This document shows positions 24,662 through 25,817 of a stretch of DNA of 64,000 nt, in pieces (position 1 is the first letter of the stretch; each line of letters starts with the position of its first letter). The notes under the pieces were generated by a model. That model saw nothing but the letters and a program-made list of their open reading frames with translations, ran no database searches and was not told the origin of the DNA. Location: the NCBI RefSeq assembly GCF_027107535.1, contig NZ_CP114283.1, positions 2,170,001 to 2,234,000 on the forward strand, read 5' to 3'. The translations under genes were made by a program, and so were the position numbers. This stretch comes from Streptomyces aurantiacus (GTDB lineage: Bacteria > Actinomycetota > Actinomycetes > Streptomycetales > Streptomycetaceae).

Positions 24662-25393
24662 GTGGCGAAACTCAATCAGATCATCGCAGTCGAGAAGGGC
24701 ATCAAGTCCAAGTCCCATCAGGACCTGACGGCTGCCCATCACGGGCTGCAGAAGCCGGCCCTGCTGGCCGGAATCTCGCGTACGTATCAGCCCAAGGACG
24801 AAGAGGGCGAGCAGCTGCCGCCCGAGTCGACGCGGGTGCAGGTGCAGGCGGAGGACGTGCTGCGGGACACCGCGGCGACGCTGACCCGGCTGTTCGATGT
24901 GACCGCCACCAAGGACTGGGCCAACTGTGAGGCCCGCGCGGACGTGAAGGTCGACGGGCGGGTGCTCGTCGCCGACGTCCCGGTGTCCTATCTGCTCTTC
25001 CTCGAGAAGCAGCTCACCGATCTCAACACCTTCGTGCGGAAGCTGCCCGTGCTCGACGCCTCCGAGTCGTGGGTGCAGGACCCGTCGACCGACGCGTGGA
25101 AGACCGAGCCGGTCAGGACGCTGCGGACGAAGAAGGTTCCCCGCAACCACGTGAAGGCGGAGGCCACCGACAAGCACCCGGCGCAGGTCGAGGTGTACTA
25201 CGAGGACATCCCGGTCGGGTACTGGACCACCGTCAAGTTCTCGGGTGCCCTTCCCGCCCGGCGCGTCAACGAACTGCTCGACCGGGTCGAGAAGCTCCAG
25301 CAGGCCGTCAAGTTCGCCCGGGAGGAAGCGAACGGCGCGGAGGTCACCGACCAGCGCGTCGGGGACGCTGTCTTCGGCTACCTGTTCGGGTAG
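24662..25393 (+). CDS. Conserved protein of unknown function (DUF7873-like), adjacent to permuted tRNA-like RNAs
   Basis: 243 residues. I recognise it only as a conserved actinobacterial family, probably DUF7873. Conserved blocks are AKLNQIIAVEKGIKSKSHQDLTAAHH, ISRTYQPKDEEGEQLPPE, LTRLFDVTATKDWANCEARADV, VSYLLFLEKQLTDLNTFV, TKKVPRNHVKAEATDKHPAQVE, and KFSGALPARRVNELLDRVEKL. It is alpha/beta, soluble, with no membrane segment and no nucleotide-binding loop. GTG 24662 has no Shine-Dalgarno but TACCGT lies 7 nt before it, so the mRNA may be leaderless. Directly downstream, on the same strand, come two circularly permuted tRNA-like units (25443-25750). Confidence 0.82.
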   Translation: MAKLNQIIAVEKGIKSKSHQDLTAAHHGLQKPALLAGISRTYQPKDEEGEQLPPESTRVQVQAEDVLRDTAATLTRLFDVTATKDWANCEARADVKVDGRVLVADVPVSYLLFLEKQLTDLNTFVRKLPVLDASESWVQDPSTDAWKTEPVRTLRTKKVPRNHVKAEATDKHPAQVEVYYEDIPVGYWTTVKFSGALPARRVNELLDRVEKLQQAVKFAREEANGAEVTDQRVGDAVFGYLFG

Positions 25394-25442: not shown

Positions 25443-25609
25443 GGAGCGCAAGCTGAACCTGAAGCTTGTCGTGACTGCGCGGTTCCAGTGGAGGTTCGAG
25501 TCCTCCCCGCGGCACCGACCCGGCACCCGTACACGTCGTACAGGGTGTCTCGCGCCGCGGTAGCCCAATTGGCAGAGGCAGACCGCGATCAATCTCAGAC
25601 TATTGCTCC
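25443..25609 (+). ncRNA. Circularly permuted tRNA-like unit 1
   Basis: The 3' half comes first: anticodon-stem strand CGGTT (25480-25484), variable CCAGT, T-arm GGAGG-TTCGAGT-CCTCC (25490-25506), acceptor strand CCGCGGC (25507-25513) and A25514. A linker (25515-25553) with its own hairpin follows. Then the 5' half: acceptor GCCGCGG (25554-25560), TA, D-arm GCCC-AATTGGCA-GAGGC (25563-25579), A25580 and anticodon strand GACCG (25581-25585). The acceptor pairs 7/7, T-stem 5/5, anticodon stem 5/5 with one G-U, extended by two more pairs. U8, A14, G18-G19, TTC, A58 and a 15-48 A-U Levitt pair are present. An outer stem GGAGC/GCTCC (25443-25447/25605-25609) closes the unit. No encoded CCA, and no anticodon can be assigned. 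Confidence 0.75.
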
Positions 25610-25644
25610 AGACTCAGCATTCGCCGCCGATCGCCGGATCGACC

Positions 25645-25750
25645 GGACCCAGGCTCCGGGCGTCGAAATGCCGGTTCAAGTCCGGCCCGCACAGCTCGAT
25701 GTGCGGTGGTCCAAAGGCAGGACGCGGCGACATAACACTGACCTGGGTCC
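25645..25750 (+). ncRNA. Circularly permuted tRNA-like unit 2
   Basis: Same order as unit 1. 3' half: CGTCG (25661-25665), variable AAAT, T-arm GCCGG-TTCAAGT-CCGGC (25670-25686), acceptor CCGCACA (25687-25693). A 6-nt junction GCTCGA follows. 5' half: acceptor TGTGCGG (25700-25706), TG, D-arm GTCC-AAAGGCA-GGAC (25709-25723), G26, anticodon strand CGGCG (25725-25729). The acceptor pairs 7/7, D-stem 4/4, T-stem 5/5, anticodon stem 5/5 with one G-U. A14, G18-G19, A21, TTC, A58 and the 15-48 A-U pair are present. The leader GGACCCAGG (25645-25653) pairs perfectly with the trailer CCTGGGTCC (25742-25750). This is the layout of permuted pre-tRNAs. Confidence 0.78.
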
Positions 25751-25786
25751 TCAAGCGTGCCGGCGTGCCACATGGGCGGCATCACA

Positions 25787-25817
25787 GGGCTCGGAGGCCG
25801 GCTACGCCTCCGAGCCC
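25787..25817 (+). terminator. Probable terminator of the permuted-tRNA transcript
   Basis: GGGCTCGGAGGC (25787-25798) pairs with GCCTCCGAGCCC (25806-25817): 12 bp with a 7-nt loop. It follows unit 2 by 37 nt. The 200 nt between it and the next gene (25818-26018) hold only promoter-like sequence and the palindrome at 25981. Confidence 0.65.

Follow-up and report, generated by a model that had tools for sequence, protein, structure and literature searches.

The window, by which we mean the whole stretch of 64,000 nucleotides that was analysed, carries a DUF7873 gene followed by two predicted structured RNAs of one unusual design, unit 1 and unit 2. Unit 2 occupies 25632-25765 (+) and lies 3′ of both the DUF7873 gene and unit 1. 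The features of the locus are as follows.

24662-25393, +: DUF7873 gene (243 aa; Pfam PF25283, 407.6 bits, E 2.7e-122), the proposed protein partner
25450-25468, +: S0, hexamer-spaced YUNAR repeats (AAGCTGAACCTGAAGCTTG), 5′ of unit 1
25478-25587, +: unit 1, permuted tRNA-like head with a 7-bp anticodon-like stem (matched by covariance model R1 at 42.6 bits)
25478-25484 / 25581-25587, +: anticodon-like stem of unit 1, 7 bp
25490-25506, +: T-arm of unit 1
25507-25513 / 25554-25560, +: acceptor of unit 1
25514-25553, +: linker in the acceptor loop of unit 1, 40 nt
25563-25579, +: D-arm of unit 1
25591-25617, +: S1, conserved motif after unit 1, of the type YUYAGRYUAUYGCUCYAGRYUYAG (from an alignment of 55 of the 107 two-unit loci)
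25632-25637, +: P1 basal stem of unit 2, 5′ strand (MFE fold; pairs with 25760-25765, 6 bp)
25638-25644, +: conserved internal loop of unit 2, 5′ strand, AUCGACC
25645-25653, +: P2 basal stem of unit 2, 5′ strand, GGACCCAGG (the leader of the initial annotation)
25661-25665, +: anticodon-like stem of unit 2, 3′ half, CGTCG (5/5 with CGGCG, one G-U)
25670-25686, +: T-arm of unit 2, GCCGG-TTCAAGT-CCGGC (base check)
25687-25693, +: acceptor of unit 2, 3′ strand, CCGCACA (7/7 with TGTGCGG)
25694-25699, +: linker closing the acceptor of unit 2, GCTCGA, 6 nt (in phage relatives it often starts N-CCA)
25700-25706, +: acceptor of unit 2, 5′ strand, TGTGCGG
25709-25723, +: D-arm of unit 2, GTCC-AAAGGCA-GGAC (A15 would pair with U48 at 25669)
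25725-25729, +: anticodon-like stem of unit 2, 5′ half, CGGCG
25742-25750, +: P2 basal stem of unit 2, 3′ strand, CCTGGGTCC (the trailer of the initial annotation; 9/9 with GGACCCAGG)
25751-25759, +: conserved internal loop of unit 2, 3′ strand, UCAAGCG (UUAAAYG in phages)
25760-25765, +: P1 basal stem of unit 2, 3′ strand (MFE fold)

Read 5′ to 3′, unit 2 runs P1, internal loop, P2, anticodon-like stem, T-arm, acceptor 3′ strand, linker, acceptor 5′ strand and D-arm. The initial annotation had described 25645-25750 as a permuted tRNA-like head on 5-bp and 9-bp stems, and a base-by-base check found this fold exact to the base. The acceptor (7/7), the T-arm, the D-arm and the 6-nt junction lie where it had placed them, its leader-trailer stem is P2 and pairs 9/9 (25645-25653 with 25742-25750), and both bases of the proposed 15-48 pair, A15 and U48, are present in unit 2. 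The MFE fold of 25623-25770 includes every stem claimed there and an extra one, the 6-bp P1. By folding energy, unit 2 does not stand out (z -1.37): 18 of 200 shuffles are as stable or better. Unit 1 is likewise present in the window, as the claim of two units of one design had it; the only stem found between its own 5′ and 3′ regions is the anticodon-like one. The linkers of the two window units begin ACCG and GCTC, without CCA. A strong hairpin lies 3′ of unit 2 at 25787-25817; three actinophages (L057, L058 and L059) also have a strong hairpin after unit 2, and their loops share CGGATAT (by eye); the loop in the window is a different one.

Across phages, unit 1 is flanked by hexamer-spaced YUNAR repeats, which in the window lie at 25450-25468 and 25591-25617. 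In phage loci, YTNAR occurs 2.93 times per locus compared with 0.91 in shuffled sequence, and 49 of 92 intervals between YTNAR motifs show the 6-nt spacing compared with 5% after shuffling. These repeats could form a binding array for an oligomeric protein.

Homologous loci were scanned over up to 900 bases 3′ of DUF7873 with a descriptor that selects on pairing in the T-arm, acceptor and D-arm. The confirmed stretches comprised (i) the best 80 of 547 from named genomes, (ii) the best 80 of 334 from IMG/VR clade A and (iii) the best 80 of 114 from the more distant IMG/VR clade B. Sets (i) and (ii), 160 loci in all, yielded 252 units: two in 54 and one in 26 of the genome loci (none was without a unit), and two in 48, one in 22 and none in 10 of the clade A loci. 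Control scans of the same 160 loci returned 8 units upstream of the gene and 2 on the reverse strand there, 1 on the downstream reverse strand, 1 within the gene and 3 in shuffled sequence. A unit was found in 73 of the 80 clade B loci (68 single, 5 double), and the clade B controls gave 0, 1 and 2 units. Among 11 GenBank phage loci, from the 73 phage records in which DUF7873 was found, 10 had at least one unit and 6 had two. The initial annotation had judged chance to be unlikely from the two window units; the comparison of 252 units with 1 to 8 in the controls confirms, at the level of sequence, that predicted permuted units beside DUF7873 are not a chance occurrence.

A strict scan of 30 DUF7873 loci from the genus found at least one permuted unit in each and two in 24, along with three additional chance-like pairings in two loci. 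We also built a covariance model of unit 2, R1, solely on DUF7873-linked RNAs. Applied to 18 scan-negative loci, R1 gave a match with E <1e-6 in 10. Some of these rescued units are displaced: L198 has its match upstream and L201 in inverted orientation, and in L291 and L064 the distance exceeds 1.5 kb. The other 8 of the 18 gave no convincing R1 match, and in two of them the contig breaks off no more than 110 bases from the gene.

Pairs or single units adjoin DUF7873 in Streptomyces, in Nonomuraea (Nonomuraea gerenzanensis carries both units) and in phages of Actinomycetota, cyanobacteria, Rhizobium, Klebsiella and Vibrio. The record of Klebsiella phage FBKp24 annotates a suppressor tRNA, tRNA-Sup-TTA (L067 4018-4097), which shares sequence with the T-arm of a permuted unit 2 and is probably a misannotation; it also places a promoter between DUF7873 and the units. 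Gordonia phage Phendrix (L058 2072-2600) encodes a tmRNA (89 bits) in a tRNA cluster adjoining DUF7873. A 161-kb plasmid of Streptomyces flavofungini (L311) carries DUF7873 and two R1 matches next to annotated transposases.

For covariation we used an alignment (A5) of 37 unit-2 sequences: that of the window, 19 from phages (the complete phage set) and, out of 31 from Streptomyces, the 17 with linkers of at most 14 nt. Over the 36 distinct sequences, 88.4% of cells were paired. The covariation score, in which relatedness is not corrected for, was 0.640, compared with 0.220 for shuffled alignments (0 of 500 reached 0.640) and 0.096-0.176 for slid ones. Near-perfect pairing of the T-arm, acceptor and D-arm is partly by construction because these pairs chose the loci; the basal stems and 15-48 had no part in that choice. 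Both-side changes occurred in 9 of 9 pairs of P2 (74.1% of cells paired) and in 5 of 5 pairs of the anticodon-like stem (78.8%). Stems broken without compensation in homologous loci had been named in advance as evidence against the proposal; that all 9 + 5 pairs show at least one both-side change favours it, although 26% (leader-trailer) and 21% (anticodon-like) of cells are unpaired, misalignment and real breaks being pooled in these figures.

Position 15-48 was tallied in 281 distinct units, which gave A-U in 189, G-C in 78 and other combinations in 14; A-U or G-C was thus observed in 267 of 281, compared with 161 expected if the two positions were independent. The consensus fold of 55 of the 107 two-unit loci adds P1 around conserved loops of the types AAUCGACC and CUUAAACG, and each pair of the P1-equivalent 6-bp stem is formed in 42 to 50 of 53-54 sequences, the structure having been predicted on the same alignment. 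Of 46 phage loci, 37 contain the 5′ loop motif ATCRA and 40 the 3′ loop motif, TTAAA[CTA]G or TCAAGCG; of 51 Streptomyces loci, 49 and 42 do, respectively. When the phage sequence is shuffled, the frequencies are 14% for the 5′ motif and 2% for the 3′ motif. The anticodon-like stems of phages are locus-specific, with means of 4.13 and 4.28 bp for a strand with its own partner versus 2.23 and 2.27 for swapped partners. Own and swapped partners pair about equally in Streptomyces (6.86 versus 6.71 and 5.12 versus 5.05), so the partner-swap test is uninformative there. Together with the base check, the covariation bears out the permuted tRNA-like order that was originally proposed. Sequence comparison shows, for the predicted RNAs, a permuted tRNA-like head with covarying basal stems, covariation at 15-48 and linkage to DUF7873.

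Of 150 genomes sampled from the genus, 70 had DUF7873. R1 matches of at least 63.9 bits occurred in 70 of the 150, and these were exactly the 70 DUF7873 genomes; the remaining R1 matches listed reached at most 57.4 bits. When weaker matches are included, 148 of 150 genomes have one at E 0.01. In the genome of the window, a 55.8-bit match corresponds to a tandem tRNA-Asn pair (L041 5726-5878), so R1 is not specific on its own below about 60 bits. The weaker matches in other genomes presumably have the same tandem tRNA-Asn origin. To a covariance model, tandem tRNA-Asn genes resemble a permuted unit, and they can mislead genome-wide screens for permuted tRNAs. TROVE, the Ro60 family, was found in 81 of the 150 genomes: 42 had both TROVE and DUF7873, 28 had DUF7873 only, 39 had TROVE only and 41 had neither (Fisher p 0.19). 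Occurrence of unit 2 and DUF7873 is independent of Ro60. In a sample of the phylum, 7 of 396 genomes had DUF7873, all of the same genus, and the gene is also present in a control genome, that of Deinobacterium chartae.

The Pfam scan of the DUF7873 protein found no TROVE domain; besides DUF7873 itself, it gave one sub-threshold SYCE1 match. The predicted structure is of high confidence (pLDDT 94.3), and Foldseek with this model returned no convincing fold relative (best E 0.041), so RNA binding draws no support from the fold. It is from the linkage to the units that we infer DUF7873 may be an RNA-binding protein. A search of open-licence papers found none on DUF7873.

Several comparisons point to YrlA, the bacterial Y RNA associated with Ro60. 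At curated cut-offs, no Rfam family was found in the window; with a permissive threshold, unit 1 matched Rfam YrlA (RF02553) at 24.9 bits (E 0.0035; cut-off 69). Ten DUF7873 loci were tested in the same permissive way: YrlA matched the linked units in five (L256, L261, L154, L302 in part, and L148), with E values from 1.7e-7 to 0.02 and a best score of 47.3 bits, below the cut-off of 69, and gave no match in the other five. None of 19 loci searched had a YrlA match at the Rfam cut-off. The window's own genome also carries two YrlA-like RNAs preceding a Ro60 gene (C2:2315183-2316592; L040 5184-5534 with the TROVE gene after), with a weak YrlB-like match (E 0.062) between them, all below the Rfam cut-offs. 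R1 matches both of these Ro60-linked RNAs over the full length of the model (37.8 and 39.4 bits), and they too miss the RF02553 cut-off (46.1 bits).

The best reading of these sequence comparisons is a Ro60-independent, Y-RNA-like family of predicted tRNA mimics that is widespread in phages and likely bound by DUF7873. We think it probable that unit 2 is one of two such mimics 3′ of DUF7873 and acts as a non-coding RNA: DUF7873 would be bound through its basal stem, and its head would dock a tRNA-handling enzyme. The units would be transcribed as non-coding RNA, DUF7873 would bind the basal-stem motifs, and the tRNA-like head would dock, for example, a nuclease or processing enzyme, as Ro60 and YrlA tether PNPase. 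In the phage forms, tRNA-processing enzymes might cleave the linker and expose a CCA end. Such a particle would work like Ro60/YrlA, with DUF7873 replacing Ro60. A bolder version, which we put forward only tentatively and regard as possible rather than probable, is a second, Ro60-free class of Y-RNA particle, mainly of tailed phages and adopted by Streptomyces. DUF7873 would hold one or two permuted mimics, and the phage linker would be cut after its encoded CCA and before position 1, which would leave a nicked two-piece mimic whose free CCA end could enter host tRNA enzymes.

The units might instead be true tRNA genes in circularly permuted form. In that case the precursor would be cleaved where leader and trailer meet, ligated and then opened at the acceptor to give a tRNA that serves in translation. 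The tRNA-like head is complete, the genome has an RtcB ligase, and many phage units have N-CCA immediately 3′ of the acceptor 3′ strand: 52 of 63 single units in clade B, and in clade A 18 of 37 first units and 15 of 37 second units (distinct units). However, the basal stem is closed by 9-bp and 6-bp helices, with conserved internal-loop motifs where an anticodon loop is expected; no conserved anticodon is seen in the unit flanks (by eye); the tRNA-splicing endonuclease PF01974 has 0 matches in the window's own genome; and in Streptomyces 10 of 50 first units and 0 of 31 second units have N-CCA. We therefore consider translation of this kind very improbable, and the closed stem, the lack of a conserved anticodon and the missing PF01974 match also tell against the likening of unit 2, in the initial annotation, to the permuted pre-tRNAs of algae. 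Among single units, N-CCA occurs in 8 of 22 from clade A and 0 of 9 from Streptomyces (distinct units). ARAGORN found no tRNA in the window, Rfam RF00005 was not reached there, and ARAGORN calls in relatives overlap 36 of 339 units. It is least probable of all that unit 1 is a conventional tRNA whose acceptor strand is taken from upstream. In its favour, 35 Streptomyces loci receive an ARAGORN tRNA call over unit 1, and of 46 loci with a D-like hairpin 17 have an upstream strand that pairs 7/7 and 15 one that pairs 6/7. Against it, 51 of 51 loci (selected at ≥6) show 7/7 pairing with the downstream strand, the upstream strand of the window pairs at only 5/7 (by eye) and any 7/7 upstream partner is found in just 3 of 46 phage loci; this reading also leaves unit 2 untouched.

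Among alternatives on function, it is unlikely, in our view, that the units are decoys with which phages sequester enzymes of the host, either defence nucleases that cut tRNA or others that act on tRNA, DUF7873 being a stabiliser. The strong phage association fits such a role, several GenBank loci sit within annotated tRNA clusters, and for 94 of 171 phage loci ARAGORN reports one or more tRNAs in the stretch retrieved, although this figure has no control and may include calls over the units themselves. Conserved basal-stem motifs, on the other hand, suggest that the RNA has a specific partner and is not a free decoy, the units offer anticodon nucleases no anticodon loop, and they are kept in Streptomyces genomes too. 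A type III-like toxin-antitoxin system, in which the repeated RNAs would neutralise DUF7873 as the toxin, has a small gene adjoining repeated structured RNAs and a patchy occurrence in the genus (70 of 150 genomes) in its favour; DUF7873 has no toxin family match, the units lie mostly 3′ of the gene and the tRNA mimicry is left unexplained, which makes this quite improbable. As for the window RNAs being trans-encoded partners of Ro60 elsewhere in the genome, a Ro60 gene with its two YrlA-like RNAs does lie about 120 kb away. We give this little credence, since 28 of the 70 DUF7873 genomes had no TROVE match, in keeping with the independence of the two genes, and the Ro60-linked RNAs have a TACTTC motif and lack the motifs of the DUF7873-linked RNAs (by eye).

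Bacterial Y RNAs have been described as Ro60 partners. A large family of the same design beside an unrelated, unnamed protein, as the favoured reading would have it, would uncouple this RNA architecture from Ro60, and DUF7873 would gain its first functional hypothesis. The question of why phages and bacteria repeatedly make tethered tRNA mimics would become testable, and the linker-encoded CCA offers a direct biochemical test. In open-licence literature on Y RNA, YrlA, Ro60, permuted tRNA and tRNA-like RNA, the DUF7873-linked pair was undescribed among the matches listed (titles and beginnings of abstracts), and no open-licence paper on permuted tRNA in phage genomes was found.

Among known RNAs, tmRNA has a tRNA-like domain without an anticodon arm; it carries a tag reading frame and is not known to be permuted like the DUF7873-linked units. 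At E 10, tmRNA was not among the Rfam matches listed for the window units, where the best of overlapping clan members are shown. The permuted tRNA genes of algae and one archaeon share with our units the order of 3′ half, linker and 5′ half with a leader and trailer around it (PMC3978253). According to the same text, their precursors are joined through a circle and the junction sequences potentially form a bulge-helix-bulge motif; the units here differ in having a closed basal stem in place of an anticodon loop and a host without a splicing endonuclease match.

YrlA is the closest counterpart. It is described as a tRNA mimic whose basal protein-binding stem tethers Rsr (Ro60) to PNPase (PMC8394870), and its solved structure can be superposed on tRNA if the order of parts is circularly permuted (PMC11472068). 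Two further papers mention Y RNA of phages alongside Ro60 (TROVE) proteins (PMC7824862, PMC7765460). The DUF7873-linked units share the permuted tRNA-like module of T-arm, acceptor and D-arm, judged by sequence and covariation; unit 2 has a stem formed from the RNA's own 5′ and 3′ regions (P2 and P1); and the covariance models cross-match, R1 with the Ro60-linked RNAs and YrlA with several DUF7873-linked units. In contrast to YrlA, the units here adjoin DUF7873 and not Ro60, their conserved basal motifs are different (partly by eye), their acceptor linker is often longer and in many phages includes N-CCA, and they score below the RF02553 gathering score of 69 bits. The model cross-matches and the YrlA papers together indicate that the DUF7873-linked RNAs are built like YrlA, with a neighbour other than Ro60 and scores under the Rfam threshold. 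This resemblance to Y RNA, combined with a different neighbouring gene, makes a new kind of RNA-protein particle likely.
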